The notes under the pieces are model-generated. The model made no database searches. It saw nothing but the letters and a program-made list of their open reading frames with translations, and was not told where the DNA came from. Made by a program: the position numbers and the translations under genes. DNA of 46,237 bases from an uncultured Hyphomicrobiales bacterium (GTDB lineage Bacteria > Pseudomonadota > Alphaproteobacteria > Rhizobiales > Beijerinckiaceae): the NCBI GenBank assembly GCA_903884435.1, contig CAISEY010000066.1, forward strand, positions 1 through 46,237, read 5' to 3'. Shown here piece after piece: positions 23,708 to 43,056 of this stretch; within the stretch, counting starts at the first letter, position 1, and every line of letters starts with the position of its first letter.

Positions 23708-24838
23708 TCACAGCCGGCGGGCGGCGAGGTCCGCGCCTTCCCGCAGGGCGGCGAGCTTCTTCCATGTCACGACGGGATCTATCTTGCCGTAACCCGCGAA
23801 GGTTCCAAATCCGCAATCGGTGCCGGCGATCACGCGTTCGGCGCCGACGAGGGCCGCGTAGCGCTCGATCCGCTGGGCGATCAGTTCGGGATGCTCGACA
23901 TAGTTGGAGCAACTGTCGATCAGGCCTGGCACCAGAACCTTGTCGTCGGGCAGCCTCGCGTCGCGCCAGACGATCCATTCGTGCTCGTGGCGCGGATTGG
24001 CGGCCTCGAACAGCAAACGGGTCGGACGCGCCTTCAGGATGATCCCGATCACCTTCTCCAGGGCGATGTCGTGATCGTGAGGGCCTTCGTAATTCCCCCA
24101 GCAGATGTGCATGCGCAGCCGCTCCGCCGGGATATTGGCCGTGGCGGCGTTGAGCGCCTCGACGTTTTGCGCGGCGCGTTCGAGGAACTCGGCCTCGCCC
24201 AGATTCTGGAAACCGGTATGCGCGGCCATGGCGAGATCCGGCGCGTCGAGTTGCAGATCGAAGCCGGCGGCGACGATCGCCTCGTACTCGGGGCGCATCG
24301 CGTCGACGAGATCGGCGAGATAGGCTTCGTGAGTTGGATAATATTGATTGGGCTGGAAGGCGGTGACGAGGCCGGGCGAGGCGGCGTTCATGAAGCCGCG
24401 GACATTCCGGCCCTCCTTGCGCATCGCCTCGCCGAAGCGGCGGATGTCGGCTTGCGCCGGGCCGGAATCGACCAGCCGCACCTCGCCGACGCAGGCGGCG
24501 CGGACGAAGCTCTGGCTGCCCATGATGGCGGCGAGTTTCGTTCGCAATTCCGGGAGATCCGCGAGGTCCTTCGCCGGCGTGCGATCGACATGGCCGCCAA
24601 AACCCGAGAGACGGCCCGTGACATAGGTCGAGTAGCCAACCTTCCCGAGTTCGCCGTCGCTGACGATGGAAACGCCCGCCTCGATCTGCGCGCGAATCGC
24701 GCGCTCGATTTCGGATGAGACCAGCGCTTCGAACGCGGTTTCATCGATCGCTTCGCCGTGATCCCGTTTCAACAGCATCGCGGCCAGCTCCGGCGAGCGA
24801 GGCAGGCTGCCGACATGGGTGGTCTGAATGAACGTCAT
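23708..24838 (-). CDS. cobalamin-independent methionine synthase-like (MetE C-terminal type) protein
   Basis: 376 residues from ATG 24838. The start 'FIQTTHVGSLPRSPEL' is typical of the single-domain MetE-like family. Zinc ligands are recognisable: His244 and Cys246 in 'RMHICWGNY', Glu278 in 'LLFEAANPRHEHE' and Cys342 in 'AGTDCGFGTF'. Full MetE is about 750 residues; this is the half-length 'methionine synthase II'-like form, often found in catabolic or methyl-transfer clusters. It may move methyl groups from substrates other than methyltetrahydrofolate. It overlaps the SnoaL-like gene by 4 bases, so the two are co-translated. Confidence 0.87.
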   Translation of the reverse strand: MTFIQTTHVGSLPRSPELAAMLLKRDHGEAIDETAFEALVSSEIERAIRAQIEAGVSIVSDGELGKVGYSTYVTGRLSGFGGHVDRTPAKDLADLPELRTKLAAIMGSQSFVRAACVGEVRLVDSGPAQADIRRFGEAMRKEGRNVRGFMNAASPGLVTAFQPNQYYPTHEAYLADLVDAMRPEYEAIVAAGFDLQLDAPDLAMAAHTGFQNLGEAEFLERAAQNVEALNAATANIPAERLRMHICWGNYEGPHDHDIALEKVIGIILKARPTRLLFEAANPRHEHEWIVWRDARLPDDKVLVPGLIDSCSNYVEHPELIAQRIERYAALVGAERVIAGTDCGFGTFAGYGKIDPVVTWKKLAALREGADLAARRL

Positions 24839-25257
24839 TTGAAATCGACCTTGAGATCGAGAAAGCCGACGCGTTCGACGAAGCGCCAGCCGTTCGCCGT
24901 GCGCGCGAGTCTGTCGCGAAAGCCGCCGGTCAACGCGGGCGACGACGCGGCCGCCTCTCCGGCGGGAGCCGTGTAAAGCAGCATGGAACAGCGGGCGGTC
25001 GCCTCGTCCATCGAGGCCAGATCGACGAGGATGTTCGAGATGAGGTGGCACGACTTGCGCGGCGGGCGGCTCGCGAAGGACGAGAGGATCGCGTCGCGTC
25101 CCACGACGGGTTCGCCGCCCGCGGGCCGGACAAACCGGCCGTCCGCGGTGAATGTCGCGGCGACGGCTTCCCAGTCGCCCGTGTCGTTGAGTAGCGCGAA
25201 ACGCGTGATCAGGCGGGCGATTTCATGTTCTGCGAGCAGGCGATCGAGCGGCGTCAT
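24835..25257 (-). CDS. SnoaL-like / NTF2-fold protein
   Basis: 140 residues from ATG 25257, chosen because GGAG lies at the right distance; an upstream ATG at 25272 is also in frame. The sequence 'LLAEHEIARLITRFALLNDT' then 'GDWEAVAATFTADGRFVRPAGG' is the alpha-helical start and first strands of the SnoaL-like fold seen in scytalone dehydratase and LinA relatives. The fold works as a small dehydratase, isomerase or ring-hydroxylase beta subunit-like module. The C-terminus is 'FLDLKVDFK'. Partnered with the MetE-like gene. Role unknown. Confidence 0.78.
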   Translation of the reverse strand: MTPLDRLLAEHEIARLITRFALLNDTGDWEAVAATFTADGRFVRPAGGEPVVGRDAILSSFASRPPRKSCHLISNILVDLASMDEATARCSMLLYTAPAGEAAASSPALTGGFRDRLARTANGWRFVERVGFLDLKVDFK

Positions 25258-25382
25258 GCCGGATCGCTCCATATTGTCGCCCCGGACACGACCGCGCGCG
25301 GGCTGGCCGGGCGGCCGCGACGGCGCGGCCGCGGCGTCGGGCGTTCCCCGGACGACGCCATTAAATTTCGGGCCATTCGCAT
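25254..25382 (-). CDS. possible 42-residue leader peptide upstream of SnoaL-like gene
   Basis: ATG at 25382 follows a strong AGGGAGG and the frame ends with TGA at 25256-25254, overlapping the SnoaL-like start as ATGA. The product begins MRMARNLMASSGERP and is very rich in arginine and proline. The overlap suggests translational coupling. It may equally be a chance frame in GC-rich leader DNA, since nothing in the peptide is recognisable. Confidence 0.25.
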   Translation of the reverse strand: MRMARNLMASSGERPTPRPRRRGRPASPRAVVSGATIWSDPA

Positions 25383-25736
25383 GCGGCTCGCCTCCCTTTG
25401 TATCAGGCGCGCGCGGCGCCGAAAGGCGCCGGCGTTTCACGCTTTTGACTTATAGGGTCGATGACCGGCGCGGACAATGTCGAGTAACGGAGCGACGGGC
25501 GCCGGTGACGATTGCGTTCCGCGCGCAGCCGTCGCCGCGCCCTGCGCGAGCCGGAAACGACGCGGGGCGCGAGAGCGGGGACATTCCCGGGGCATCCCCT
25601 GCGCATGGCTCTCCGGGACCGGACGACCAGGGTTTCAAACGAAACATGATTTGAGCCGCCTTGAATGGAGGCCCGCGGTCCGGATGTTCTTTTTTCGAAT
25701 GGGACCGGCGTTCCGCCGGACCCTGTCCGGAACAGT
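25258..25736. other. 479-base intergenic region
   Basis: Apart from the possible leader ORF, this stretch shows a 7-bp hairpin CGGCGCC/GGCGCCG with a GAAA tetraloop at 25414-25431, which would lie in the 5' leader of the SnoaL-like gene on the minus strand, and a terminator-like hairpin at 25701-25723. No convincing gene was found between 25440 and 25700. Confidence 0.5.
25701..25723 (-). terminator. GC-rich hairpin after the chimeric gene
   Basis: GGG-A-CCGGCG pairs with CGCCGG-A-CCC around a TTC loop, with one A.A mismatch, 13 bases past the stop of the ALDH-DctA frame. No U-run follows on the minus strand, so it is only a possible terminator. Confidence 0.3.
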
Positions 25737-27188
25737 CTACCGGCCGTTCAGGACGCTTTGCAGAAGCTTGTCGTCGCAGGATTTTTCCCATTTCGCGATG
25801 ACGATCGTGGCGACGGCGTTGCCGATCAGGTTGGTTGGCGTCAGCCCCTGCGACATGAGCCGGTGGATGCCCAGCACGAGCGCGACGCTCGCCACGGGGA
25901 TCGAGCCATGCGTCGACAATGTCGCGGCGAGAACGACAAACGCCGCGCCGGCGATTCCCGCGGCGCCCTTCGCGGTAAGAAGCAGGATCGCCATGAGGCC
26001 GACCTGCTGGGCGATGTCGAGCGGCGTATTGGTGGCTTGCGCCAGAAACACGCTGGTCGTCGCCAGATAAAGGCACGTGCCGTCGAGATTGAACGAATAG
26101 CCGGTCGGAATGACGAGCCCAACGACGCCCCGCTCGCAACCCAGATTTTCCATCTTCGAAATCATGCGCGGCAGAACGGTTTCCGACGACGTCGTGGCGT
26201 AGCAGATCAAAAGCTCTTCCCGGATGTAGCGCAGCAGCTTGAACAGGCTGAAGTCCGCCATGCGGCACACCGGCCCGAGAACCCCGAACACGAAAACGAG
26301 ACAGGTGATGTAGAACCCGATCAACAGCTTGCCGAGCGAGGCGAGCGATCCGAGGCCGAATTTGCCGACCGAAGCCGCCGCGACGCGATCGAGGTCGGAA
26401 TCGGGAAACGCGACCAGCGGGTTCTTGCCGCCGGGTTCGAGCGTGACGTGTTTTACCGACGTTTCCGCCGCCGCCTTCTGAATGGCCATGCCGGACGCCG
26501 CGGAGCCAATGAAGGCGATGCGCTTCACTTTCGGGTGACGCACGAGCGCCTCGCCCGTGTCGCGTCCGCCGGTGACGACGTTGACGACGCCAGGCGGCAA
26601 AATTCTGGCGCACAACCGGGCGAGGATCGAGGCGGAGAGCGGGCTTTGCCCGGAAGGCTTTATCACCATGGTGTTGCCGGTGATGATCGCCGGCGCGATG
26701 CGCGAGGCCGCGAAACCGATCGGATGGTTGAAGGGAATGATGCGCCCGACGACGCCATAGGGGACGCGCAGCGTCATGTGTATGTTTCCGGGCGTCGCCG
26801 GGACGGTCTCGCCCTTGATTTCGTACGCAAGCCCCGCCGCGAAACGCATGCGATCGACGGCGGTCGTCACGTCCGCGCGCATGGGCCCGATCGTGTTGCC
26901 CGTGTCGAGCGCTTCGACGCGCGCGAACTCTTCCGTCTTCGCCAGGATCGCGTCGGCGAGCGCGTTGACGTATTGCGCCCGCCGCTCCATCGAAAGGGCC
27001 GCCCAGGCCGGGAACGCCCTGGCCGCCGCGTCGACAGCCTCGTCCACGTCGCGCTTGCTGCCCGCGGGCGCCTTGCCGAGAAAGGATTCGCCCGCCGGAT
27101 TGGTCGAGGTCAGCCAGCCGCCGTCGCGGCTCTCCACGAGCTTGCCGTCGATCAGCATGCTGCCAACGCTGAAATTGATATCGTCCAC
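25737..27188 (-). pseudogene. in-frame chimera: aldehyde dehydrogenase N-terminus fused to DctA-type carrier C-terminus
   Basis: One open frame of 483 residues from GTG 27188 (GGGAG upstream). Residues 1 to about 273 are an NAD-dependent aldehyde dehydrogenase: 'TSTNPAGESFLGKAPAG', the catalytic-Asn motif 'RIIPFNHPIGFAASRIAPA', 'TGNTMVIKPSGQSPL' and the general-base region 'VTLEPGGKNP'. From V274 (base 26369 downward) the sequence becomes a C4-dicarboxylate carrier of the DctA family: 'VGKFGLGSLASLGKLL', the HP1 motif 'TTSSETVLPRMISKMENLG', 'PTGYSFNLDGT', HP2 'GAAGIAGAAFVVLAATL' and 'NLIGNAVATIVIAKWE'. The dehydrogenase lacks its catalytic cysteine and C-terminal half; the carrier lacks its first five or so helices. 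Neither half should work alone. A deletion or an assembly join explains it. Confidence 0.85.
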
Positions 27189-27276
27189 GTTTTTCTCCCG
27201 GGAAACGTCGCGCCGCGAGCGCGGGGCGGCAAGGGCGCCGACCCTTCGCGGATGGAATTGAGCCTGGTCGCGGCGA

Positions 27277-28521
27277 CTAGTTCGCCCGATCGCGCGCCAG
27301 TTCGTCGAGCGTCCTCAGAAAGCAGCCGAGGCCCGCGCTCCTGAGCGGCGCCCAACGTTTTTCCATGAGTTTGCACTGACGTTTGACGACATTCGCCGCG
27401 TCGTGACTGATGCAATCGACGGGAAACAGGACGATGTCCGCCCGACCGATCATGCCCGGGAGCATGCTCGTCGCTTCCTGCTGGCCGCCGTCGTGATGTT
27501 CGAACGCAATGCCGCGCGCCCCGGCCATGGACGACAATTGCCGCACGCCTCCGGAAAGCCCGCCGACATAAAGAACGCGCAGATCGAGGGGCGGCGAACG
27601 CGACTCGTCGACCGGAGCGTCGATGTGAGATTCCAGCGCGGCGACTTCGCATTCCAGCCGCGCCTCTCGCGAGACCAGGGCGCTCACCCGGGCCTTGAGT
27701 TTCATCACCTCGGCCAGCAGTCGATCACGCTCGGCTTCCACGGTTTGAAGGCGCGACGCGTCCTTCCGGGATTTTTGATCGAGCCGGGCGATGATCTGTT
27801 CGAGGTCTTCCCCGTCGGGCGTCTCCCTGTTCCGGGCCGCGTCCCTGTTCGCCATGATGCGATCGAGCGCCAGCCCCTGAAGGCGCTCCACCTCCGCGGC
27901 GTGCCTGATCGCGGATTGCCGCATGCGTTCTTCCTGCCGCCGGGTCTTTTCGCCCAGGCGCGCGTTCTCCGCCTCGATCTCCGCGAGACGGCGAATGTCC
28001 GCGCGGTTCGCCGCGCCGACAAGATGGGACAGCATGTGAACGTCGCCGAACACGTCCCGCACCAGAGGCTCGGTGGCGAGGGGATGGGTGATGATCGCCC
28101 AGTAGGCGCCGGGGATTTCTCCCCTGGCGCGCGCCTGATCCCAAAGGACCTTCAATTCGGCGACGTCCGCGGCCTTGTCGAAGCGCCTGATCGCCGCGGC
28201 GTGCTGTTCGTCGAGCGCCTTGTGCAGCAACTTCGATCCGATTGTCCGGGCGGAGGCCATGGACACCGCGAGCTTGTGTATCTCGTGATCGGAAAGATCC
28301 TCGTCGCGATGATCGGTGGCCTTGAAGACGAGGCGTCGCAGGGCGGCCGTGCCGAGACAGGTCCCGATAATCGAGCAATGCAGGGTGGTCGACAGGTCTC
28401 CGAGCTTGCGACGACGCTTTTCGACGCGAAAGTTCTCGGGCGGCGTCAACCGCGCCGTCGGAACGACCGCGTAGCTCAGTGGGCGAAATGGCTTTGACAA
28501 TATGCCGAACGGCTGACCCAA
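27277..28521 (-). CDS. DUF2325 domain protein with long coiled coil
   Basis: 414 residues from TTG 28521, which has AGGGAGG in front; an upstream in-frame TTG at 28551 lacks this and would include the palindrome at 28544-28559. The N-terminal third is basic then helical. The middle (about 190-330) is a heptad-rich coiled coil, for example 'LAEIEAENARLGEKTRRQEE' and 'LQTVEAERDRLLAEVMKLKA'. The C-terminus 'LRVLYVGGLSGGVRQLSSM' to 'CFLRTLDEL' is the DUF2325 domain, with a Rossmann-like 'VGG' and 'ADIVLFPVDCISHDA'. Function is unknown. It follows modC on the same strand, linking it to molybdate uptake. Confidence 0.82.
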   Translation of the reverse strand: MGQPFGILSKPFRPLSYAVVPTARLTPPENFRVEKRRRKLGDLSTTLHCSIIGTCLGTAALRRLVFKATDHRDEDLSDHEIHKLAVSMASARTIGSKLLHKALDEQHAAAIRRFDKAADVAELKVLWDQARARGEIPGAYWAIITHPLATEPLVRDVFGDVHMLSHLVGAANRADIRRLAEIEAENARLGEKTRRQEERMRQSAIRHAAEVERLQGLALDRIMANRDAARNRETPDGEDLEQIIARLDQKSRKDASRLQTVEAERDRLLAEVMKLKARVSALVSREARLECEVAALESHIDAPVDESRSPPLDLRVLYVGGLSGGVRQLSSMAGARGIAFEHHDGGQQEATSMLPGMIGRADIVLFPVDCISHDAANVVKRQCKLMEKRWAPLRSAGLGCFLRTLDELARDRAN

Positions 28522-28714
28522 GACGGCCTCCCTCGCTATGATTATATCCAATCAGATATTTTAAAATGCGTCAACGCCACGGATGGCGGTGTGTCCGCGA
28601 AAGCCTGGAAGGCTGAAAAAGTTCCAAAATAGACAATTAACTGCTCACGCGCTGGACCCGTCACGCCCACCGTCGATCATCGATGATATTTATTTGGATA
28701 TATATAAATCCGGA
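28522..28714. other. AT-rich modC-DUF2325 intergenic region
   Basis: 193 bases between modC and the DUF2325 gene, with a run from 28681 to 28710 of nearly pure A/T. It separates the two genes enough to hold an own promoter. Besides the inverted repeat at 28544-28559, nothing definite was found. Confidence 0.5.
28544..28559 (-). promoter_or_regulatory. Mo-box-like inverted repeat before DUF2325 gene
   Basis: ATATC (28544-28548) and GATAT (28555-28559) are perfect inverted halves with a 6-base spacer, 22 bases upstream of the DUF2325 start. AT-rich half-sites with 6-7 base spacing are the general look of ModE boxes, and a clearer one lies in front of modE. Control by ModE is an inference. Confidence 0.35.
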
Positions 28715-29797
28715 TTACCGATGCGCGAGGGAGACGCCCTTGACCTGCGCCCACACGGCCATTCCGGTGACGAGGCCCAGTCGGTCCCATGAACGGCGCG
28801 TGACCCGGGCGAGAAGTCTGGCGCCGCCGTCGGCGAGGGCGAGCACGACCAGAATCTCGCTGGGGCCCAGAGCTTCGCGCCCGACGATGGTCGCGGGCAG
28901 CACGTTCAGAATGCTGCTCGAAGCGGGCGGATCGAGAACAAGGCTGACATCGCTCGCGGCCACCCGAACGCGGCGGACATGACCGGTCTCGACAAATGGC
29001 GAGGGAACGAGGAGGCGCGCTCCAGCGATTGAAAGCGACAGCAGACCGTATTGCGCGTCGTGGCCTTCGACGCGCGCCTCGAAACTCATGGCTGCGTCGC
29101 GGTTGCGCGCCAGCGGCAACGCGGGATCGCCCTGCAACCTTGCGAGCGGGCCCGACGCGATCACCCGGCCCGCTTCCATCAGGACGAGGGAGTCCGCCAG
29201 GCGTTCGATCTCGCTCATGTCGTGACTGACATAAATAACCGGCAAGGCCAGGCGTTCGTGCAACTTTTCCAGAAAGGGAAGTATCTCGTCTTTCGTCAGG
29301 CGATCCAGGGCGGAGAGCGGCTCGTCCATCAACAACAGTTTCGGGTCCGACAGCAGCGCGCGGCCGATCGCCACGCGCTGGCGTTCGCCCCCCGAGAGAT
29401 TTCGCGGCGACCTGTCCAGCAGCGTCGCGATGCCGAGGAGTTCGACCGCTTCGTCGAAGGCGACGGCGCCGTGCGAAAGCTTGTGCCGGGGCGCGCCGTA
29501 AAGCAGATTGCGTCGCACGGACAGGTGCGGGAACAGGCTGGCTTCCTGAAACACGTAGCCAATCGGTCTGCGCCAGGTCGGCAGGCACATCGAGGCGTCC
29601 TGCCAGACCTCGTCGCGCACGCGACACGAGCCACGCAACCTCGTGAGACCGGCGATGCATCGCAAGACGGCGGTCTTCCCGCATCCGGAGGGTCCAGACA
29701 GAGCGGTAACTCCTGTTTCAGGCGCGACAAAAGTCGCGTCGAGCCTGAACGAGCCCAACGCGCCCTGAAAAGAAACATGGATGCCCGCGCCGTTCAT
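28715..29797 (-). CDS. modC: molybdate ABC transporter ATPase ModC
   Basis: 360 residues from ATG 29797, which overlaps the modB stop by 4 bases. Walker A GPSGCGKT (35-42), '[12 protein letters not shown]' Q-loop, signature LSGGERQ (134-140) and '[12 protein letters not shown]' Walker B are intact. A C-terminal Mop/TOBE domain ('[15 protein letters not shown]', '[17 protein letters not shown]') is typical of ModC and binds molybdate or senses it. Energises molybdate import at the inner membrane. Confidence 0.95.
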
Positions 29798-30480
29798 GCC
29801 CTGGCTTTCGCGAAGCGGCGCTCAATCAGCATCATCGAGAGGATGACCACGAAGGCGAAGGCGACCATCCCGGCGGCGAGGATACTGGCTTCCCGCCATT
29901 GGGAGGTTTCGACGTAGTCGAACATTGCGATCGAGAGAACCCTGGTCGAGCCTGGAATATTGCCGCCGATCATCAGGACGACGCCGAACTCCCCGACCGT
30001 GTGCGCGAAGCCGAGAACGGCGCCGGTGAGAAATCCCGGCGTCGCGAGGGGCGCGGCGACGGTCCAGAAAGCTTTCGAGGGCGAGGCGCGCAACGTGGCG
30101 GCGACCTCGAGGGGTCGTTCGCCCATGGCCTCGAAGGCGTTGCGGATGGGCTGCACGACGAAAGGCATCGAATAAAGGATGGAGCCGAGCACCAGTCCCT
30201 CGAACGTAAAGGCGAGCGTGCGGCCTCCCCACAGCGAGGCGACCCGACCGCCGGGGCCCTGGGGTCCCAGCGCGAGCAGCAGATAAAAGCCCAGCACCGT
30301 TGGCGGAAGAACCAGCGGCATCGCGACAATTGTCGCGACAGCCTCCTTCCACCAGGCCTTCGACCTCGAGAGCCACCAGGCGATGGGCGTGCCGATCACC
30401 AGCAGGCAAAGCGTGGTCACCGCCGCGAGCTTGATCGTCAGAAAGACAGGTTGCCAGATGTCGGCGGAAAGGGCTGTCAC
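29794..30480 (-). CDS. modB: molybdate ABC transporter permease ModB
   Basis: 228 residues from ATG 30480, beginning '[20 protein letters not shown]' with five or so membrane helices and the motif '[20 protein letters not shown]' used by ModB/CysT permeases. The coupling loop '[20 protein letters not shown]' contacts ModC. It lies 6 bases after modA and overlaps modC. Length is normal for the family. Confidence 0.95.
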
Positions 30481-30486
30481 GGGAAG

Positions 30487-31242
30487 CTAGCGACCCACTT
30501 CGTAGCCATATTTTTCAATCGCCGCGCGCGCCTCGGGTCCCCTCAGAAACGCGATGAAGCCGGTCGCCGCCTCGTTGCCGGCGCCCTTCCTGAGCAGAAC
30601 CGCGTCCTGCAAGATCGGAGCGTAGAGCTTCTGGTCCACGAGCCAGCGCGATCCCCCCGTGTTGCCCGCGACCTGAGACAGGGCGATGAAGCCAAGTTCG
30701 GCGTTTCCGGAATCGATGAACTGGAAGGCCTGCGCGATGCTGTTGCCTTCGACGATCTTGCTCTTCAGCGTGTCGTACACACCGAGCGCTTTCATCGTTT
30801 CGATCGCGGCGGCGCCATAGGGCGCGGCAGCCGGATTGGCGATGGAAATTTTAGAGAAGGCGGCGCCTTTCAACGTCTCCACGCCCTTCACGTAATTGGC
30901 CGACTTGCTCCAGAGGAGGAGCTTGCCAATCGCGTAGGTGAAGCGACTGTCTCCCATGGCGAGACCATCGGTCACGAGTTTCGCGGGCCGTTCGTCGTCG
31001 GCGGACAGAAAAATCTGGAACGGCGCGTCTTGCGTGATCTGGGTGTAAAATTGTCCCGACGAACCAAAGCTCAGGATCGCCTCGTGCCCGGTCTTCTGTT
31101 TGAAGGCGGCGGCGATTTCCTTCGCGGCGTCCGTGAAGTTGGCGGCGACCGCGACGTTCGTTTGAGCCGCGCCAGCTTCTCCGCCCGCGAGCAAAGCCGC
31201 GATCAGGACGAGCGCCGGTCGTGTCATTCCAGGATAGCGCAT
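30487..31242 (-). CDS. modA: molybdate-binding periplasmic protein ModA
   Basis: 251 residues from ATG 31242, chosen over an upstream TTG because GGAG sits 6 bases ahead. A signal peptide (ALVLIAALLAGGEAGA) is followed by 'TNVAVAANFTDAAKEIAAAF' and 'ILSFGSSGQFYTQI', where the serine-rich loop contacts the oxyanion, then 'PFQIFLSADDERPAKLV'. It is full length. It begins 13 bases after modE ends, so regulator and transporter form one unit. Confidence 0.95.
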   Translation of the reverse strand: MRYPGMTRPALVLIAALLAGGEAGAAQTNVAVAANFTDAAKEIAAAFKQKTGHEAILSFGSSGQFYTQITQDAPFQIFLSADDERPAKLVTDGLAMGDSRFTYAIGKLLLWSKSANYVKGVETLKGAAFSKISIANPAAAPYGAAAIETMKALGVYDTLKSKIVEGNSIAQAFQFIDSGNAELGFIALSQVAGNTGGSRWLVDQKLYAPILQDAVLLRKGAGNEAATGFIAFLRGPEARAAIEKYGYEVGR

Positions 31243-31255
31243 TTCGAACTCCGGT

Positions 31256-32008
31256 TTAATCAATGGCGATGATGACGTGGGCCGCGTCGAATATCGCGTA
31301 AGCGGACTTTCCCGGCGCGATGCCCAGAGACTTCAATCCGCCAGCCGTGAGGCTCGCGGCAATGGTTTTGCCATCGCCGATATCGAGCACGACCTCCGCG
31401 TTGACCGCGGTGGATTCGCAGCGCGCGACCGTCCCCTGGATGCAATTGCGCGCGGACGACCGGGGCGGCGCGTCGCCGGACGCGATGATGACGAAAGGGG
31501 CCTTGATCAGCAAAATAACGGCGCGCCCGACGCACAGACCCAGTTCGCGAACGCTGGGCGCCGTGACGCGCGCGTAAATCGAGGCGTGATCCGACACCGA
31601 AACCTCGACCTCGGCGCTCAGCGCGTCCTGTTCGATCGCGGCGACATGGCCGCGCAAGGCGTTGCGAGCGCTGGTTTTCATGAAATATCCCGTGACGAGA
31701 TCGCGGGGCGAAACGCCGGTTCCCCGCAGGTCCGGCTCGAGCGAGCGCAGGACGCGCGCCATCTCGCCCTCGAGGCGCCCGAACGCCTCGATCACCTGAA
31801 GGCCGGCGGGCGTGAGTTGCGACCCGCCGCCGCTCTTCCCTCCCGAGCGCGTTTGCAGCAGCGGGCGGCCGAACAGGTTTTGCATCGCGTCGAGCGCGTC
31901 CCACGCGGCCTTGTAGGTCAATCCGACCGTCCTGGCCGCGGCGGTTATGCTGCCTTCCCGCGACACCGCCTGAAGCAGGCGAATCCTGTTGCGCCCGACC
32001 GACGCCAC
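31256..32008 (-). CDS. modE: molybdenum-responsive regulator ModE
   Basis: 250 residues from GTG 32008, preferred because AGGAG (plus-strand CTCCT at 32016-32020) precedes it; a longer TTG frame at 32062 has no ribosome site and reaches the operator. The N-terminal winged helix is 'IRLLQAVSREGSITAAAR' with 'TYKAAWDALDAMQ'. Two molybdate-binding Mop repeats follow ('TSARNALRGHVAAIEQDA' and 'SARNCIQGTVARCESTAVN'). ModE binds molybdate and represses modABC or activates Mo-enzyme genes. It heads the mod operon and lies back-to-back with mop. Confidence 0.93.
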   Translation of the reverse strand: MASVGRNRIRLLQAVSREGSITAAARTVGLTYKAAWDALDAMQNLFGRPLLQTRSGGKSGGGSQLTPAGLQVIEAFGRLEGEMARVLRSLEPDLRGTGVSPRDLVTGYFMKTSARNALRGHVAAIEQDALSAEVEVSVSDHASIYARVTAPSVRELGLCVGRAVILLIKAPFVIIASGDAPPRSSARNCIQGTVARCESTAVNAEVVLDIGDGKTIAASLTAGGLKSLGIAPGKSAYAIFDAAHVIIAID

Positions 32009-32063
32009 GGTTTCGCTCCTGAGTGAAATTGTCGCTTCGATGACCAAAGTCGGGCTCGCCAAT

Positions 32064-32090
32064 CGACATATAGATGGACTATATTACCCG
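32064..32090. promoter_or_regulatory. Mo-box (ModE operator) in modE-mop divergent promoter
   Basis: ATATAG at 32068-32073 and CTATAT at 32079-32084 are perfect inverted repeats with a 5-base spacer, flanked by CG at 32064-32065 and at 32089-32090. This matches the general ModE operator layout of TATAT-like halves about 6-7 bases apart. It sits between the divergently read modE and mop starts. Confidence 0.6.
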
Positions 32091-32132
32091 GGTCGCCGCC
32101 ATGGCGAAAGCCCCTGTGACGGGAATCCGGAC

Positions 32133-32341
32133 ATGAAAATCAGCGCGCGCAATCAACTCAAGGGAACGGTGCTCGACGTTGTGAAAGGCGCCTCGACCTC
32201 GCATGTGCGGATTGATACCGGCGGCGCGGCGGTCCAGCCTCCATCACCAGCGAATCGGTTGACGACCTGAAGATCGCGAAGGGTCTGAAGGTGACGGCGG
32301 TCGTGAAATCGTCGGACGTCATGGTCGCGATCGAGGACTGA
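32133..32341 (+). pseudogene. mop: mop molbindin gene with a one-base frameshift
   Basis: ATG 32133 opens with 'MKISARNQLKGTVLDVV', the exact start of molbindins, and continues 'KGASTSHVRIDTGG'. Near 32237 the frame breaks; the other frame then carries the rest, 'ASITSESVDDLKIAKG' and 'VVKSSDVMVAIED', ending at TGA 32339-32341. Restoring one base (likely a G in a CAG-CC run) gives 69 codons, the normal molbindin length. Mop proteins store or buffer molybdate in the cytoplasm. The break may be real or a sequencing error. Confidence 0.85.
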
Positions 32342-32374
32342 GCCGCCGTCCGGCCTTCCCGCGCGGAGAGCGTC

Positions 32375-33413
32375 ATGACTTGCAGCCTTCGAGCCGCCTT
32401 CGTTTCGACGGCGGTGGTTCTGGCCCTCTCGACGGCGGCGGCTGACGCGCGTCAGGTCGTCGATTCCGCCGGACGCAAGGTCGAGATTCCCCGGGCCATC
32501 ACGCGCGTTCACCGCCGGCCCGCCGGCGTCGACGCTGCTTTACACGCTCGCGCCGGAGAAAATGACGGGCTGGATCAGCGCGCCGCGCGACAGGGAGAAA
32601 CGCTTCCCGCCGCCGTCGGTTCGCTCCCTGCCGGAACTCGGCCGTCTGACCGGACGCGGCGACACATTGAACCTCGAGAGGCTGCTCGAGACAAAGCCGG
32701 ATGTCGTCATCGACTTTGGTTCGATCAACGACACCTACCGCTCGCTCGCCGACCGCGTTCAGGCGCAGACGGGAATTCCGTACCTGCTGATTGACGGCCG
32801 CTTCGATAGCACGGCCACGGCGTACCGCCTGCTCGCGGACATTCTCGGCGTGAAGGAGCGGGGCGAAGCCCTGGCGCGCGAGGCCGAGGCGCATTTCGCC
32901 CGCGTCGATCGCGTCGTGGCCGCGACGCCTTCGGCCCGACGCCCGCGCGTGTACCTCGCGCGCGGGCCGGACGGTCTCGAATCCGGCTCGCGCGGATCGA
33001 TCAACACCGAGATCATCGAACGTGTCGGCGCCGTCAACGTGGTCGAGGTCCTTCGCGAGCGTGGAGGCATTGTGAGGGTCTCGCCGGAACAGGTGATCGC
33101 CTGGGCGCCGGACACGATCATGACGCTGGACAAGGCCTTCGCGCGCGCCGCGCCCTCGCGAGCGGAATGGAAGCTCATGTCCGCGGTCGCGTCAGGCAGA
33201 GTTTTCGTGTCCCCCTCCCTGCCATGGGGCTTCATAGACGCGCCGCCATCGGTCAATCGCCTGTCGCGTATGACCTGGCTGCTTCACAAGCTCTATCCGG
33301 CGGCGACGGGCGGCGATCTCGGCGAGGAGACCCGGGCCTTTTACAGGATGTTCTATCAAGTCGAATTGTCGGACGCCGACCTGACCGACATCCTTGACGC
33401 GCCGAACGACTGA
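32375..33413 (+). pseudogene. frameshifted class III metal/chelate ABC binding protein (BtuF/MolA-like)
   Basis: The ATG at 32375 begins a signal peptide (FVSTAVVLALSTAAADA) and the segment 'RQVVDSAGRKVEIPRAITRV' typical of FepB/BtuF-type proteins. At about 32507-32513 the frame breaks; the next frame resumes with 'TAGPPASTLLYTLAPEKMTG' and runs to TGA 33411-33413 through 'LETKPDVVIDFGSINDTYRS' and 'FIDAPPSVNRL'. Length is 1039 bases, one more than 346 codons, so a single indel is enough. Position beside mop and mod suggests molybdate/tungstate (MolA) or siderophore uptake; that is inferred. The downstream permease is also broken. Confidence 0.8.
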
Positions 33414-33521
33414 ATGCGCGACGCGCGAACAATTACAGTGACGACGGGCCTGGCCATGCTGCTCGTGGCCTGCGCGATTGTCGCGGCGGGCGTGGGGCCC
33501 TATCGCATCGCGCCGCTCACG
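33414..33521 (+). pseudogene. truncated FecCD/BtuC-type permease, first ~35 codons only
   Basis: ATG 33414 directly follows the previous stop (TGAATG), the usual operon spacing. The start 'MRDARTITVTTGLAMLLVAC' is the first membrane helix and 'VGPYRIAP' is the conserved loop after it in FecCD permeases. After about 33521 the frame reads into the IS-like segment and ends without matching the family. The permease body (about 300 residues) and the ATPase are missing, so the importer cannot work. Confidence 0.65.
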
Positions 33522-33640
33522 CCGCGTTCGCGAACCAGACGAACCGCCTCGATCTTGAACTCTCTACTGAACCTGCGCCTTTGCATTGCAAACCTCCGGC
33601 TTCATGAAACACCTTATCTTGGTGTCCACGAGACCGGCAG
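33515..33640 (-). mobile_element. IS3-type insertion sequence remnant (start of orfA)
   Basis: Reading leftwards from ATG 33586, the frame begins MQRRRFSREFKIEAV and continues RLVRERGVS, the N-terminus of IS3-group OrfA transposases, then is lost at about 33515 where it meets the truncated permease. The 50 bases upstream on the minus strand ('GTGGACACCAAGATAAGG' region) look like an IS left end. The remainder of the element is absent. The right boundary at about 33640 is an estimate. Confidence 0.6.
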
Positions 33641-33963
33641 CAGGCCAATGCAGATGGTTCTGCCTGGGCTGTGAATCAAAAAAGGCCGCGACTGAATCGG
33701 AGCGGCGAGTAGGCCACAGCCGTCCGGCAACTATCGAGCGCTCGCGCTGGCAAGTCGTCAAAGCATCAATGTCCGTTTCCCCCGAATCAATTTTGAAAAG
33801 AGGAGGTGGCACCGTTGCAATGAGGGTGTACCAACATCGCGTTGACGCTGGCGATGAGCGGCGTTGCGGCCTGTACACAACGCTGTTATCATTGCTGTGC
33901 ACGAAACATCTGGGGCGTGTGCAGATTCAATGACTTAGCTGGTTTATTCCCAGCTGAAAAAGC
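33641..33963. other. unassigned lower-GC stretch before tRNA-Gln
   Basis: About 320 bases between the IS remnant and the tRNA. Frames here are short and have no family resemblance or consistent codon bias. Composition is closer to average GC than the neighbourhood, as expected of inserted or decaying DNA. Near 33938-33966 it contains overlapping inverted repeats. Confidence 0.5.
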
Positions 33964-33966
33964 TGG
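33950..33966 (-). terminator. hairpin abutting the tRNA-Gln 3' end
   Basis: CCAGCT (33950-33955) pairs with AGCTGG (33961-33966) around a GAAAA loop, and overlaps the tRNA CCA end. A second AGCTGG at 33938-33943 can pair with the same CCAGCT, giving an alternative stem. On the minus strand it would form the tRNA trailer; no long U-run follows. Confidence 0.35.
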
Positions 33967-34038
33967 CTGGGGCGGGAGGAATCGAACCTCCGAATGGCGG
34001 AATCAAAATCCGCTGCCTTACCGCTTGGCGACGCCCCA
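33964..34038 (-). tRNA. tRNA-Gln (anticodon UUG)
   Basis: On the minus strand, 75 bases fold as a complete cloverleaf: acceptor TGGGGCG/CGCCCCA, D arm GCC..GGC, anticodon arm GCGGA-TTTTGAT-TCCGC, T arm GGAGG-TTCGATT-CCTCC and genome-encoded CCA. The anticodon TTG (plus-strand 34004-34006) reads CAA, so the tRNA carries glutamine. It borders a decayed IS-bearing region, a common integration spot. Confidence 0.95.
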
Positions 34039-34197
34039 TCAAGGCGGGCGGACCATAATGCGGCGGGTGCGGCGCCGCAAGAGACCCCGGTCTCCTGTTA
34101 TCCCGGTTCTCCATTTTCCGGCGCCCGGATCGATGTCCGGCGGCTTTCCTTCCGGGCGCCGGCCCTGCTATCCTCGCGCATATCTCGGGAGGAACGC

Positions 34198-35220
34198 ATG
34201 AAATTCGTGGTTTATGGCGCGGAAAGGCGGCTGGGTCTGCTGCACGCCGGTCAGGTGTGCGACGTCGCGGGCATGACCGCCAAATACTTGCGGGAAAAAC
34301 AGAACGAACCGCAACCCTTGCCCATGGCCGACGCGCTGACGCCGCCCGATCTCGAGGCCTTCATCGAGGGCGGCGACCGCGCGCTCGACACGACGCGCAA
34401 GGCCGTCGAACACCTGTTTGGCGCGGCGGGATCGCGCGCCGGCGTCGATGGCGAGACGATCACCTTCGACGCCGGCAGCACGCGTCTGCACGCGCCCAGG
34501 CCCGCGCGCGGCCGCGTCGGCTTTTGTGGCGGCAACTTTCCCGCCCACGCCGCCGCCATGGCGGTGAACCGCGGCCGCGACGAGACGCCCGCCGAAGATC
34601 CGCGCGCCATGGTGCGCAAGCGCGGCTTCTGGGGAAGCTGGAAGATCGAGCGCGACGCCCAGGGGCCCGATGGCGTCGTCAAATATCCCAATGGCGTGAC
34701 GCGCTTCGACTACGAGGGCGAACTCGCCATCGTGCTCGGCAAGAAGATCAAGAACGTGAAGGAAGCCGAGGCGCGCAAGGCGATCTGGGGCGTCACACTG
34801 TTCACCGACTGGAGCGCGCGCGATTTTCCGCCGAACGCGATGAACCTCAATTTCGCCCGGGGCAAGAACTTCGACAATTGCTATTCGCTCGGACCATGCA
34901 TCGTCGTCGACGAGCTGGACGCCTATAATGTCGATATCGAGACTTTCGTGAACGGATCGCGCCGCCAGGCGTTCAACACGAGGGACATGGCTTTCACTTT
35001 CGGCGAGTTCCTCGAACACCTGACCTTCGGCCTGACGCTCTATCCCGGCGACATTCTCGCCTCGGGGACGGGGCCGGGCACGGCGATGGATTCGAGCAAG
35101 AAGGACGCGAACGGCAAGGTGTTGCCGGACCTGTTCCTGCAACCCGGAGACACCGTCGAGGTGAAGTCCCCCGGCATTGGCGTGCTGCGCTCGACGATCG
35201 CGCCGATGGATCCGGCGTAG
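34198..35220 (+). CDS. fumarylacetoacetate hydrolase (FAH) family protein
   Basis: 340 residues from ATG 34198, with GGGAGGA at 34187-34193. The N-terminal domain 'MKFVVYGAERRLGLLHAG' leads to the FAH core: 'RFDYEGELAIVLGKK' (metal-binding acidic motif), 'VTLFTDWSARDF', 'GKNFDNCYSLGPC' and 'GDILASGTGPGTAMD'. These cytoplasmic metal-dependent enzymes hydrolyse or isomerise diketo acids in aromatic ring degradation, for example hydroxymuconate decarboxylases and acylpyruvases. It starts a three-gene unit with two binding proteins. Confidence 0.9.
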   Translation: MKFVVYGAERRLGLLHAGQVCDVAGMTAKYLREKQNEPQPLPMADALTPPDLEAFIEGGDRALDTTRKAVEHLFGAAGSRAGVDGETITFDAGSTRLHAPRPARGRVGFCGGNFPAHAAAMAVNRGRDETPAEDPRAMVRKRGFWGSWKIERDAQGPDGVVKYPNGVTRFDYEGELAIVLGKKIKNVKEAEARKAIWGVTLFTDWSARDFPPNAMNLNFARGKNFDNCYSLGPCIVVDELDAYNVDIETFVNGSRRQAFNTRDMAFTFGEFLEHLTFGLTLYPGDILASGTGPGTAMDSSKKDANGKVLPDLFLQPGDTVEVKSPGIGVLRSTIAPMDPA

Positions 35221-35290
35221 GTGCGGCGAAGCCGCCGGAGATCGCGGCGCGCGTGCGGGCGCTGACCGCCGGGAAATGAGGGAGAAACAC

Positions 35291-36325
35291 ATGCGCACGC
35301 GCTTTTTCGCGGCTTTCGCGGTCGTCGTCCTTCTCGCGCCGGCGCCGGCCGGAGCCGCCGACAGGGTCAGCGTCGGCACGACGTTTTCCATGACGGACCT
35401 GCCGTTCTTCATCGGCGAGAAGCGCGGCTATTTTCGCGACGAGAATCTCGAGATGAATTTCGTCAATTTCGATTCCGCCGCGCGGATGATCGCGCCGCTC
35501 GCCTCGGGCGATCTCGACGCGGCGGCGGGCGGGCCCTCGGCCGGGCTCTACAACGCCATCGCGCGCAACATCGGCATGCGCATCGTCGGCGACAAGTCGC
35601 GCGCCGCGCCGGGACGTCACAGCCAGATTTTGCTGGTGCGCAAGGCGCTGATCGACAGCGGGCGCGTGAAGACGCTCGCCGATCTCAAGGGGCTGAAAGT
35701 CGCCAGCGCCGCGCCAGGCTCTTCCGCCATGGGCACGCTGAACCGGATTTACCAGCAAACCGGCATGAAGGAGAGCGACATCGAGCGCGTCTACATGGGG
35801 TTTCCGCAACAGATCGTCGCCTTGCAAAACGGCGCGGCGGACGTGGCCTTTCCCACCGAACCCTTCGCCAGCGAGGCGGTTCGGCGGGGCTTCGCGGTGG
35901 CCTTCATGACCGACGACAAAATTTATCCCGATCACCAGATGTCGGTGATGCTCTATTCCGACAAGTTCCGGACGCAACGTCGCGACGCGGGCCTGCGCTT
36001 CATGCGCGCCTTCCTGCGCTCGGTGCGGGCGCAGAACGACTCCATCGTCGATGGCAAGCTCACCGGCAAGGACGCCGACGAATTCCTGACGCTGATCGCG
36101 GAAAACACCAACGTCAAGGACAAGGTCTTTCTGCGCACGCTGACGATGAGCTACGCGGACGACGACGGTCGCGCGAATGTCGAGAGTCTGAAGGAGGATT
36201 TCGAGGTCTTCCGCAAGGAAGGACTGATCGAGGGCAAGATCAGCGTCGACGAGGCGCTCGATCCCTGGTTCGCGGACACGGCGGCAAGGCAGCTTGGCGA
36301 ACGAAGCGGGCGGTCGCCGCGGTAG
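35291..36325 (+). CDS. NMT1-type ABC transporter substrate-binding protein
   Basis: 344 residues from ATG 35291, with GGAG at 35281-35284. The signal peptide (FFAAFAVVVLLAPAPAGA) precedes 'DRVSVGTTFSMTDLPFFIGE' and 'KRGYFRDENLEMNFVNFDS', the aliphatic-sulfonate/nitrate binding fold. Ligand-site segment 'AAAGGPSAGLYNAIARN' is present. No permease or ATPase follows, so it is an orphan here. Operonic with the FAH-family gene; it may deliver that pathway's substrate. Confidence 0.86.
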   Translation: MRTRFFAAFAVVVLLAPAPAGAADRVSVGTTFSMTDLPFFIGEKRGYFRDENLEMNFVNFDSAARMIAPLASGDLDAAAGGPSAGLYNAIARNIGMRIVGDKSRAAPGRHSQILLVRKALIDSGRVKTLADLKGLKVASAAPGSSAMGTLNRIYQQTGMKESDIERVYMGFPQQIVALQNGAADVAFPTEPFASEAVRRGFAVAFMTDDKIYPDHQMSVMLYSDKFRTQRRDAGLRFMRAFLRSVRAQNDSIVDGKLTGKDADEFLTLIAENTNVKDKVFLRTLTMSYADDDGRANVESLKEDFEVFRKEGLIEGKISVDEALDPWFADTAARQLGERSGRSPR

Positions 36326-36383
36326 GCGCCGGGCGAGCGAAACTCTATTGTCCGGCGCGCCATCGCCGCCGACCGGGGAACCC

Positions 36384-37370
36384 ATGCCAGACCAGATCAC
36401 ACGCCGCCAGACGCTCGCCGCTCTCGCCTCGCTCGCCGCGACGCCCGCCCTTGCCCAGGCCCAGGGCGCGGCCGATTTTCCGAAATCGCAGATCCGGATC
36501 GTCTGCTCCGCCGCCGTCGGCGGCGGCAACGATCTCATCGCGCGCATCATGGGCGCCCATCTCCAGCAGAAATGGGGGCAGACGATCATCGTCGAGAACC
36601 GCCCCGGCGGCGGCAACAACATCGCGGCGGATTTCGTCTACAGGTCCGCGCCCGACGGCTACACGCTGCTGGTCTCGCCGCCTGGACCCGTCACGGTCAA
36701 CAAGGCGCTGTTCACCGACCTGCGCTACGATCCCGACAAGCTCGAGCCGGTGACGATCACCTCCTATATTCCCAACGTGCTCGTTGTCGCGGATACATCG
36801 CCCTTCAAAAACGCGCGCGACTTCATCGCCTTCGCCAGGGCCAATCCGGGCAAGCTCACCTACGCCTCGCAGGGCATCGGGACCACGGGCCATCTCACGG
36901 GCGCGCTGTTCGAGCAGATCATCGGGGTGAAGCACCGGCACGTGCCCTTTGGCGGCGCGGCGCCCGCGCTCACCGACGTGATGGCGGGGCACGTCGATTT
37001 CATGTTCGCGGACATTGGCACGGTGCTGTCGCTCGCGCAGGGCGGCAAATTGCGGATGCTGGCGACGTTGACGAAGGAGGCGCCGCCGCAGGCGCCGGAT
37101 CTGCCGACGATCGCCTCGGTGGGCCTGCCGGACCTGCTTTCGGACACCTGGACCGTGTTCACGGCGCCGCCCGGCACGCCCCTCGCCATTCGCGAAAAAT
37201 ACGCTGCGGCCATGCGCGAGGTGATTTTCCTGCCGGAGGTCAAGGAGCAGCTCGCCCGCATCGGCGTGGTGCCCTGGGGGCTCGGCGTTCAGGAATCCGC
37301 CGATCTCATCCGCGCCGAAACCCGGCGCTGGGGCGATGTCGTGCGCCAGGCGGGCGTGAAGGTGGAGTAG
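36384..37370 (+). CDS. TctC/Bug-family tripartite tricarboxylate transporter binding protein
   Basis: 328 residues from ATG 36384. The leader 'ITRRQTLAALASLAATPALA' includes a twin-arginine-like start. 'IRIVCSAAVGGGNDLIARIM' and 'ENRPGGGNNIAADF' are the family's ligand loops, and 'GTTGHLTGALFEQ' follows. It is the second such orphan in the window (the first at 6989-8011) without TctA/TctB genes. Bug proteins bind carboxylates, including aromatic ones. Confidence 0.88.
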   Translation: MPDQITRRQTLAALASLAATPALAQAQGAADFPKSQIRIVCSAAVGGGNDLIARIMGAHLQQKWGQTIIVENRPGGGNNIAADFVYRSAPDGYTLLVSPPGPVTVNKALFTDLRYDPDKLEPVTITSYIPNVLVVADTSPFKNARDFIAFARANPGKLTYASQGIGTTGHLTGALFEQIIGVKHRHVPFGGAAPALTDVMAGHVDFMFADIGTVLSLAQGGKLRMLATLTKEAPPQAPDLPTIASVGLPDLLSDTWTVFTAPPGTPLAIREKYAAAMREVIFLPEVKEQLARIGVVPWGLGVQESADLIRAETRRWGDVVRQAGVKVE

Positions 37371-37391
37371 GGCGTTTCCCCGGCGATCGCC

Positions 37392-38663
37392 TCAGAACTT
37401 CGCCTTGATTTCCGGTTCGAAAATCGCGCGCCAGTCGTCGCCCGCCTTCACGAAATTGTCGTGCGGGCGCATGTGGCCGTGTGTTTTCGGATCGAGCCCG
37501 CGCGGCGTCCGCCCCGCCTCGACGTCGTGCGTCGCCTCGAGCAGCAGGCGGCGCATGGTGATGATGGCGCGGTCCGTCGAGCCAAGGTGCTCCTTCGAGC
37601 GATCGACGATCGGCCCCATGCCTTCCTGCAAGGCGAAGTCCTGGGTGTTGATGCCGGTGATGCCCGTGAAGATTTTCGTCTTCATCAGGTGGAAATCGCG
37701 CCCGTAATCGTTCGACTTGTTCTTCTTCAGTTTGAACGTGCCGGGGATCATGTCGTCCGGTCCGCGGCCGTAGAAGATCTCGGCCTCGTCGATGTGTTCC
37801 GGCGTCAGTTTCACGCTCTCGTCGTAGCCATGGTGCCAGTTGTAGACGTGGGTCTGCCCGTCGTCGATCGGCGCCCAGATGTGTCCATCGACGACGGGGA
37901 AGTCCTTGCGCTTGCCGTCGAACTTGTGAATGCCGCCGCGCATTTGCTGGAACGGCATGACATAGTGATAGAGCCGCACATAGAAGTTGCCGTCGCCGAG
38001 ATTGCGGTGCGACACGTAGTAATATCCGTAGTCGGTCGTCTCCACGTCGAGCCGGGGCGCGGTGTCGATCTGGCGCATCTCGGTTTTCTTGTCGATGGCG
38101 TTGTTGTGCGCGAAAGAGGAATGCGCGGTGTCGAGCCCGCCCTCGAGCGCCTGCAAATAGTTGCACTCCTCGTAGGTTTTCGAGACATGGCAATGGGTGT
38201 GCGGCACGCGCGTCCATTCGTAGTCCGGCGGCTCCGGCATGTGTTCCTTCGGACCCATGTAGGTCCAGACGACGCCGCCGCGCTCGACCACCGGATAGGC
38301 CTTGATGCTGACGCGCTCCTTCAGGCGCGAGTCCGGCGCTTCCGTCGGCATGTCCACGCATTTGCCGTCTCGGTCGAATTTCCAGCCGTGATAGGCGCAG
38401 CGCAGTCCGCATTCCTCGTTGCGGCCGAAATACATGGGCGCGAGGCGATGCGGGCAATAGGCGTCGACGAGGCCGACGGCGCCCGTCGTGTCGCGATAGG
38501 CGATCAAATCCTCGCAGAGCAGCCGCACCTTGATAGCGGGGCCGTCGTTTTCCGGAAGCTCCGACGAGAGGCACGCGGGCTGCCAGTAGCGGCGGAACAA
38601 TTCGCCGGCGGGCGTGCCAGGGCCGACGCGGACGAGGCGTTCATTGTCTTCGGGTTTCAGCAC
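37392..38663 (-). CDS. Rieske non-heme iron ring-hydroxylating oxygenase, second copy
   Basis: 423 residues from GTG 38663, with GGAGG (plus CCTCC at 38671-38675) 7 bases ahead; longer in-frame extensions upstream lack any signal. Rieske ligands Cys70/His72 and Cys89/His92, and iron-site residues Asp178, His181 and His186 ('GGLDTAHSSFAH'), match the first oxygenase position for position, so the two are paralogues. Beyond residue 110 they diverge, implying different substrates. No reductase gene is adjacent; a convergent binding protein gene ends 21 bases away. Confidence 0.92.
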   Translation of the reverse strand: MLKPEDNERLVRVGPGTPAGELFRRYWQPACLSSELPENDGPAIKVRLLCEDLIAYRDTTGAVGLVDAYCPHRLAPMYFGRNEECGLRCAYHGWKFDRDGKCVDMPTEAPDSRLKERVSIKAYPVVERGGVVWTYMGPKEHMPEPPDYEWTRVPHTHCHVSKTYEECNYLQALEGGLDTAHSSFAHNNAIDKKTEMRQIDTAPRLDVETTDYGYYYVSHRNLGDGNFYVRLYHYVMPFQQMRGGIHKFDGKRKDFPVVDGHIWAPIDDGQTHVYNWHHGYDESVKLTPEHIDEAEIFYGRGPDDMIPGTFKLKKNKSNDYGRDFHLMKTKIFTGITGINTQDFALQEGMGPIVDRSKEHLGSTDRAIITMRRLLLEATHDVEAGRTPRGLDPKTHGHMRPHDNFVKAGDDWRAIFEPEIKAKF

Positions 38664-38823
38664 GGGCGCGCCTCCATTCGGGAATTGCCGGTTTTCGTGG
38701 CGGGAACTTATGCGGGCGCGCGGCTGTTTGTCCATCCGCGCGCGTCCTCTATCTTTCCCTGTGACCCGCGGCGCCGTTCGTGCTACCCGCCGCGCGGCGT
38801 CCGAAAGGAAAATCACCGGTCTC

Positions 38824-40260
38824 ATGGACACAAGCATCCTGAATTCGCGTCCGCCAGCGGCGCGGACGATCCATCCCCTCCTCGTTTCGTCGATCGTCGC
38901 GACGGCGTTCTTCATGGAGAATTTCGACGCGACCGTGATCGTGACCGCGCTGCCGCACATGGCGCTCGCCTTCGGATCGACGCCGGTTTCGCTCGGTCTC
39001 GGGCTCACCTCCTATATTCTCGCCCTCGCCGTGACGCTTCCCGCGAGCGGCTGGCTTTCGGATCGCTGGGGCGCGCGCAACGTGTTTTGCGCGGCGATCG
39101 CGGGGTTCACGCTGGCGTCCGTCCTGTGCGGCCTCGCGAATTCGTTGCCCGGGTTCGTGGCCATGCGCGCCCTTCAGGGCGTGGCGGGCGCGCTGATGTC
39201 GCCGGTGGGGCGACTCGTCGTTTTGCGCGCGACGGACAAGAAAGACCTCGTGCGCGCGATGAATTTCATTTCCACTCCGGGCCTGATCGGGCCGATTCTC
39301 GGGCCGCCGATTGGCGGATTCATCGCGACCTACGCGGACTGGCGCTGGATCTTTTTCCTCAATCTGCCGATGGGTCTGCTCGGGTTCTGGCTCGTGCGCC
39401 GTTTCATTCCGGACGTGCGCGAAGCGGGCGCCCAGCCCTTCGACGCGAAGGGATTTGGCCTCAACGCGGTTGCGCTCGTGACATTGTTGCCGGGGCTCGA
39501 TCTCCTCGGCCATCCTGGCGGGGACAAGTTCGCCGGGGCTGTTCTCGCGGCGGCCGGCGTCGCCGCCGGCTGGGCGGCCGTGGCGCATTACCGGAGGGCG
39601 GAGACGCCGCTGATCGATCTCGCGGCGTTGCGGATCAAGACATTCGCCGTCGCGTCGCTGACGGGCGGTTCGCTGTTTCGCATGTCCATCGCCGCGCCGG
39701 TGTTCGTGTTGCCGCTGTTTCTCCAGGTCGGCCTCGGGCATTCCGCGTTCATCGCGGGATTGCTGGTGCTGGCGCACGCGGGCGGCGATCTCGGCGTCAA
39801 GATCGTCACGACCGCGACGCTGAAAAGGTTCGGCTTTCGCGCCGTGCTCATCGCGAGTTCGGCTTCGTTCGCGGCGCTGATCGCCGGGCTGGCGCTGGTC
39901 GATGAACGAACCTCCGTCGAGGTCATTCTGCTGATCCTGCTGGTGTCGGGGATCGTGCGTTCGCTGCAAATGACGGCGCTTTCGTCGATGCAGTTCGCGG
40001 ACGTGCCGCGTTCGCAAATGACGGGCGCCTCGACCTTCGCCGCGATCAACCAGAACGTGACGCGCGCGCTCGGGATCGCTTTTTCAGCCTTCGCGCTGAA
40101 CGCGGCGACTGAGTGGCGCGGCTCGGGCGCGGCGCCAACCATCGCGGATTTTCACGTCGCCTTCGTCGCGGTCGCGCTGCTGTCCTTCGGAGCGACGCTG
40201 CGTTACCTGACGCTGCCGCGCAACGCGGGGTTGCACGTCAGCGCCGGGCGCGGCGGGTAG
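38824..40260 (+). CDS. MFS exporter, DHA2/EmrB-type
   Basis: 478 residues from ATG 38824, read divergently from the Rieske gene. The first helix 'LVSSIVATAFFMENFDATVI' followed by 'ALPHMALAFG' and motif A 'SGWLSDRWGARN' is typical of 14-helix drug:H+ antiporters, as is motif C-like 'GLIGPILGPPIGGFI'. Such carriers pump out toxic compounds. The pairing with an aromatic oxygenase suggests export of inhibitory substrates or products. AGGA lies about 15 bases upstream, rather far, so the exact start is uncertain. Confidence 0.88.
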   Translation: MDTSILNSRPPAARTIHPLLVSSIVATAFFMENFDATVIVTALPHMALAFGSTPVSLGLGLTSYILALAVTLPASGWLSDRWGARNVFCAAIAGFTLASVLCGLANSLPGFVAMRALQGVAGALMSPVGRLVVLRATDKKDLVRAMNFISTPGLIGPILGPPIGGFIATYADWRWIFFLNLPMGLLGFWLVRRFIPDVREAGAQPFDAKGFGLNAVALVTLLPGLDLLGHPGGDKFAGAVLAAAGVAAGWAAVAHYRRAETPLIDLAALRIKTFAVASLTGGSLFRMSIAAPVFVLPLFLQVGLGHSAFIAGLLVLAHAGGDLGVKIVTTATLKRFGFRAVLIASSASFAALIAGLALVDERTSVEVILLILLVSGIVRSLQMTALSSMQFADVPRSQMTGASTFAAINQNVTRALGIAFSAFALNAATEWRGSGAAPTIADFHVAFVAVALLSFGATLRYLTLPRNAGLHVSAGRGG

Positions 40261-40266
40261 GGAGCG

Positions 40267-42456: not shown

Positions 42457-42467
42457 GGCGATTCCCC

Positions 42468-42932: not shown

Positions 42933-43056
42933 CGCCCGTCTCCTCTCCCCGTGACGCGCGTTCGCGCGATTTGTTGCTTTGGCGGGCCCGGGCCCGACGA
43001 TCGGCACAAGAGCATGGACGGCGGCGCGAGGAAAGCGCCGCCGCCCGGCGCGAACG

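Follow-up and report, generated by a model that had tools for sequence, protein, structure and literature searches.

The window, that is, the whole 46,237-nucleotide stretch of DNA analysed here, carries on its minus strand an open reading frame of 483 codons (positions 25737–27188). The frame starts with GTG at 27188 and ends with a stop codon at 25737–25739, without internal stop or frameshift, and the sequence ccgggagaaaaac upstream of the GTG is purine-rich and, judged by eye, a plausible ribosome-binding site. Its product falls into two parts: Pfam assigned residues 26–275 to the aldehyde dehydrogenase (ALDH) family Aldedh and then residues 271–467 to the carrier family SDF. NCBIfam models gave the same split: those for DctA begin to match at residue 271, and all 25 models shown score below their own cut-offs. 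The ALDH part shares 83% and the DctA part 77% protein identity with the nearest intact homologue of each, so this two-family anatomy is not due to chance. The GC3 of the hybrid is 0.84, and its codon use and dN/dS values are still coding-like. The original prediction had described an ALDH front and a DctA back in one frame with a start, a ribosome site and no internal stop; the profile matches, the DNA alignments to relatives and the open frame agree with it in each respect, which confirms that the join is present in the sequence. An antisense open frame of 559 codons on the plus strand (25665–27344) spans the entire hybrid and is probably a mirror of the GC-rich coding sequence.

Residues 1–273 (26370–27188, minus strand) derive from the N-terminal part of an NAD(P)-dependent aldehyde dehydrogenase (Aldedh, E 4.6e-77, profile positions 9–259 of 461, short of a full-length match). 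This part shares 83% protein identity over 264 aligned residues with an intact ALDH of the congener G022. The catalytic cysteine of the GQxC motif is absent from the hybrid; all six ALDH relatives inspected read GQSC, and in all six the cysteine lies 11 residues beyond the position of the join, just as expected from the proposal that the dehydrogenase stops short of it. The glutamate of LExGGK, which we take to be the general base, is kept as E251, a column with E in 78 of 85 other ALDH rows. Two motif positions are unusual when compared with these 85 rows, some of which are the same gene taken from overlapping loci: the x of LExGGK is P in the window (L in 63 rows, M in 14, C in 4, G in 2, T in 1 and a gap in 1), and the x of KPSx is G (E in 42, P in 25, S in 16, T in 1 and N in 1). 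The best NCBIfam ALDH models for the hybrid were of the HpaE and betaine/aminobutyraldehyde types, all below cut-off.

From residue 274 to residue 483 (25740–26369, minus strand) the frame encodes the C-terminal half of a DctA-type carrier, matching positions 190–387 of the 387-position SDF profile (E 2.3e-48) and aligning to residues 225–417 of the 422-residue GltPh chain (PDB match 1xfh/2nwl). With helix names assigned from GltPh, which presumably hold for this carrier, the part begins just before TM6 and continues through HP1, TM7, HP2 and TM8. The HP1–TM7–HP2–TM8 core is present by both the profile and the alignment. SDF profile positions 1–189 are unmatched in the hybrid, and the N-terminal half of the carrier (TM1–TM5, including the trimer scaffold) is absent. 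Both matches bear out the reading of V274 onward as a carrier with HP1, HP2 and the last helices that lacks its first half. Another truncated dctA, the second remnant of this gene in the genus, was observed in the draft assembly of the congener G043 (locus L113, G043:C218, 1501–1923; locus L176, 10180–11163). It comprises only the last ~125 homologous residues, is 81% identical to the window's, breaks at a different point and adjoins an opposite-strand gene that, by eye, resembles the C-terminal part of a luciferase-like (LLM) oxidoreductase.

The two parts meet at positions 26364–26369 on the minus strand, codons V274–G275. Window positions 26365–27164 aligned to the G022 ALDH gene, 25783–26371 to the G022 dctA and 25744–26369 to the dctA of a further congener, G008. 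Since the alignments of the two parts to intact relatives overlap only at 26365–26371, the join can be placed at V274–G275, and the prediction of V274 (base 26369) is accurate to within these two codons. At the corresponding place, three of six ALDH relatives have Val-Gly (L003, L025 and L026) and the other three Val followed by another residue; the dctA relatives have Val-Gly in 10 of 12 cases and Ile-Gly in 2. With the G022 ALDH and dctA as parents, 7 bases at the join are identical; about 0.1% of joins made at random, and 0.16% of those in phase, have at least as many. When the G008 dctA stood in as parent, the number of identical bases dropped to 2, and because the true parents are lost, the microhomology is no more than suggestive. 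Exact matches of the G022 ALDH gene extend to at most 12 bases with the G022 dctA and 9 bases with the G008 dctA.

Both parent genes exist as separate, intact genes in relatives, a check that the original prediction had proposed. G022 is the one congener with close relatives of both: its ALDH (C1:1,401,080; 81% identity over hybrid residues 8–280) and its dctA (C1:2,031,394; 73% over residues 271–482) lie about 630 kb apart. The dctA genes of G008 and G041 are 77% identical over the shared part and 73% identical, respectively. We examined 165 loci for the parent pair, many of them 3–4 kb long, and 132 had any match. Apart from the window's own ORF (four loci), ALDH followed by dctA as neighbours was found in none of the 165. 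Only two other loci carried both genes, in the opposite order: in Xenorhabdus sp. BG5 (L044) and X. thuongxuanensis (L046), dctA precedes ALDH on the same strand as a separate gene, with about 450 bases between the matches, forming a natural pair of neighbours. The proposal that one deletion joined two neighbouring genes is thus unsupported.

The flanks of the hybrid were also compared with relatives. Upstream lies a DUF2325 protein gene (27277–28551, minus strand; PF10087), with relatives at 40–52% identity in 9 other genomes of the 51 of the genus (E ≤ 1e-40). In three of the six relatives whose region was examined (G024, G022 and G041; L153, L154 and L155), the DUF2325 gene is directly followed on the same strand by an ALDH gene, an arrangement also seen in the window. 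The ALDH of these relatives is a different one, however, with only about 40% identity to that of the hybrid; DUF2325 and ALDH genes may be recurrently associated. Downstream are genes for a SnoaL-like protein (24835–25275, minus strand; PF13577), 68–80% identical in relatives where found, and a MetE-like (Meth_synt_2) protein (23708–24844, minus strand; PF01717), matched in 34 of the 51 genus genomes, its own included (E ≤ 1e-40), some of these matches being paralogues near 40%. The SnoaL–MetE pair (23708–25275) is common in the genus, and the gene upstream of it varies across the five genomes inspected (L146, L148, L150, L161 and L164): purN-purM (G016 and G005), katG (G051), sensor-like genes and an amidase-like gene, names that were read by eye without family search. 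Because this neighbour changes among the five genomes, the pair may mark a rearranging spot. The flanks of the hybrid showed no synteny with the G022 parent loci beyond weak family matches (TctC at 32–35% and another protein at 30%). Synteny that would demonstrate a local deletion was sought in the parent loci and in the SnoaL–MetE and DUF2325 regions of relatives and was not found.

The join itself was recovered from no other genome. The hybrid protein matched 10 of 51 genus genomes (E ≤ 1e-60) and 15 of 397 order genomes (E ≤ 1e-80, the four best candidates scored per genome), and a 145-residue piece centred on the join matched 2 of 385 class genomes and 7 of 398 phylum genomes (both E ≤ 1e-25, at most 10 candidates scored per genome). 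All four counts include the own genome, and the four samples overlap. Every listed match outside the own genome covers one half only, and none spans the join. The scan of GTDB contigs kept the best 80 of 90 relatives; among 104 loci, the two halves lie together in the window's own three and the two Xenorhabdus loci, and are joined in the own three only. In plasmids, 3398 of 72,556 records matched the hybrid, and in none did one place cover at least 80% of the query. A conserved fusion family, for which homologues with the same join had been suggested as the test, was therefore rejected for the genus, order, class and phylum genomes, the loci and the plasmids searched. The titles and abstract openings of the papers listed mention no ALDH–DctA fusion.

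We then considered selective constraint in the two halves. In the ALDH part, the window differed from its four closest relatives by a dN of 0.115–0.225, and these relatives differed from one another by 0.114–0.227; the corresponding dN/dS values were 0.07–0.24 and 0.10–0.16, and the higher values of some window pairs come mainly from lower, near-saturated dS. The carrier part gave dN/dS of 0.135–0.216 against 11 full-length rows, compared with 0.075–0.204 for intact dctA pairs of like distance (71–81% identity), among those listed. Private changes at otherwise invariant columns numbered 4 of 252 in the ALDH part (2–24 in other sequences) and 4 of 208 in the carrier part (0–5 in others). In a narrow set of four ALDHs, the window had 14 such changes, its two nearest relatives 8 and 10, and the fourth sequence 30; in a narrower carrier set the window had 6 and the others 2–7. 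Relaxed selection as proof of decay was therefore rejected, with dN like that of intact pairs and private changes within range, and a slight relaxation in the hybrid halves is possible. Apart from a few unusual residues, both halves still appear to be under constraint. The lack of a clear loss of constraint indicates that the join either formed very recently or is absent from the cell.

The genome from which the window comes is a 5.3-Mb assembly of 461 contigs (completeness 93.5%, contamination 6.88%). Profile searches of the whole assembly (E ≤ 0.001) detected no SDF piece besides the hybrid and, for Aldedh, the hybrid and one full-length gene on contig 266. Neither the missing 3' half of the ALDH gene nor the missing 5' half of dctA was found elsewhere in the assembly by these searches, and no hidden remnant of them was detected in the window, where the other tblastn matches had E 1.2 or worse. 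Setting aside the genome's self-match, and among the matches listed, the left arm of the contig (8000–26360) matches the same genus at 64–88% DNA identity and the right arm (26380–46237) at 66–84%. With both arms matching one genus at similar identity, a cross-taxon contig chimera is not supported.

Taken together, these data make it probable that the hybrid is a one-off gene remnant, a recent and unconserved scar of illegitimate recombination. In such an event, a deletion or rearrangement would have brought the 5' part of one accessory gene, the ALDH, and the 3' part of another, the dctA, together at a Val-Gly, in frame by luck, with loss of the 3' half of the former and the 5' half of the latter. 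On this reading, which is inferred, cells carry the join, recombination at a short shared sequence produced it, and its product has no activity. The frame would still be translatable, and its product would function neither as a dehydrogenase nor as a carrier, because it is without the ALDH nucleophile and catalytic domain and without TM1–TM5 of the carrier, including the trimer scaffold. Moreover, a cytosolic ALDH part ahead of TM6 would make this helix enter the membrane from the wrong side, if its orientation is, as we assume, that of the GltPh topology. The remnant reading is favoured by the clean division into two families, both with intact parents in congeners, the missing halves unfound in the assembly and no join-spanning match among those listed for the other genomes searched. 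The 7-base identity with the G022 pair, the short exact matches of the parents, the unusual P and G at two motif positions, the 14 private ALDH changes and the truncated dctA of G043 also argue for it. It is weakened by the lack of ALDH–dctA neighbours in relatives, by flanks that are not syntenic with the G022 parent loci, by the dependence of the 7-base match on the dctA stand-in and by the lack of clear constraint loss.

An assembly artefact, in which a chimeric read or contig join linked ALDH and dctA fragments of the same genus in a draft assembly, is a possible though clearly less probable explanation. The 461 contigs and the 6.88% contamination speak for it, as do halves without clear loss of constraint, parent genes that are never neighbours in the needed order in the 165 loci, the window's own aside, and flanks that match neither G022 parent locus beyond the weak family matches. 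However, the sequence around the join is without any N, and no exact match longer than 12 bases exists between the parent genes tested. At 12 and 9 bases, such matches are shorter than those on which de Bruijn graph assemblers ordinarily join sequences, which makes a k-mer-graph join unlikely; a chimeric read is a possible source all the same. A mis-joined contig would be expected to leave at least one missing half at another contig end, unless lost or unbinned, but neither half was found elsewhere in the assembly. Both contig arms match the same genus, and only one in three random joins on the same strand would be in frame.

A functional soluble–membrane hybrid, in which the coenzyme-binding part of ALDH is anchored to a transport-core fragment of DctA, is strongly disfavoured and very improbable. 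The open frame with its plausible start and ribosome site and the coding-like GC3 and dN/dS are consistent with it. On the other hand, no hybrid homologue was found in the samples searched, the ALDH cysteine and the first carrier half are missing, and residues at two ALDH motif positions are unusual. It is likewise very improbable that, in this one lineage, a recently born protein is made and sits in the membrane, its NAD-binding ALDH part held there by a DctA transport-core fragment and the whole acting, for instance, as a regulator or decoy. The original prediction had listed a deletion scar, an assembly join and, less likely, a functional hybrid; this list stands and its caution was justified, and the single deletion of neighbouring genes is not supported. 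Separate intact parents and the absence of a same-join homologue in the samples fit decay or an artefact and speak against a functional hybrid.

The hybrid matters little by itself, but it is a clean case of two unrelated accessory genes joined in frame. In a draft genome such a join mimics a novel domain architecture, and without a check of relatives it could be annotated as a fusion protein. Should reads confirm the join and the hybrid prove to be expressed, this would be a chimeric gene of very recent origin, captured before it decays.

Residues 1–275 of the hybrid can be aligned with the aldehyde dehydrogenase superfamily (PF00171) across the coenzyme-binding part, and the glutamate of LExGGK falls within this alignment. 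In contrast to members of the superfamily, the hybrid ends 11 residues before the catalytic cysteine and has G for E/P/S in KPSx and P for L/M in LExGGK. Like DctA and the other dicarboxylate/amino acid:cation symporters (SDF, PF00375; NF002461, below cut-off), it aligns over residues 271–482, from before TM6 to the C-terminus, and retains the HP1 and HP2 sequence, whereas the first carrier half (profile positions 1–189) is missing. Recombination between two genes is a general source of chimeric remnants. The hybrid resembles them in its in-frame join of a 5' part and a 3' part at a short shared sequence, and differs in that relatives were not found to carry the intact neighbouring pair that a simple deletion would require.
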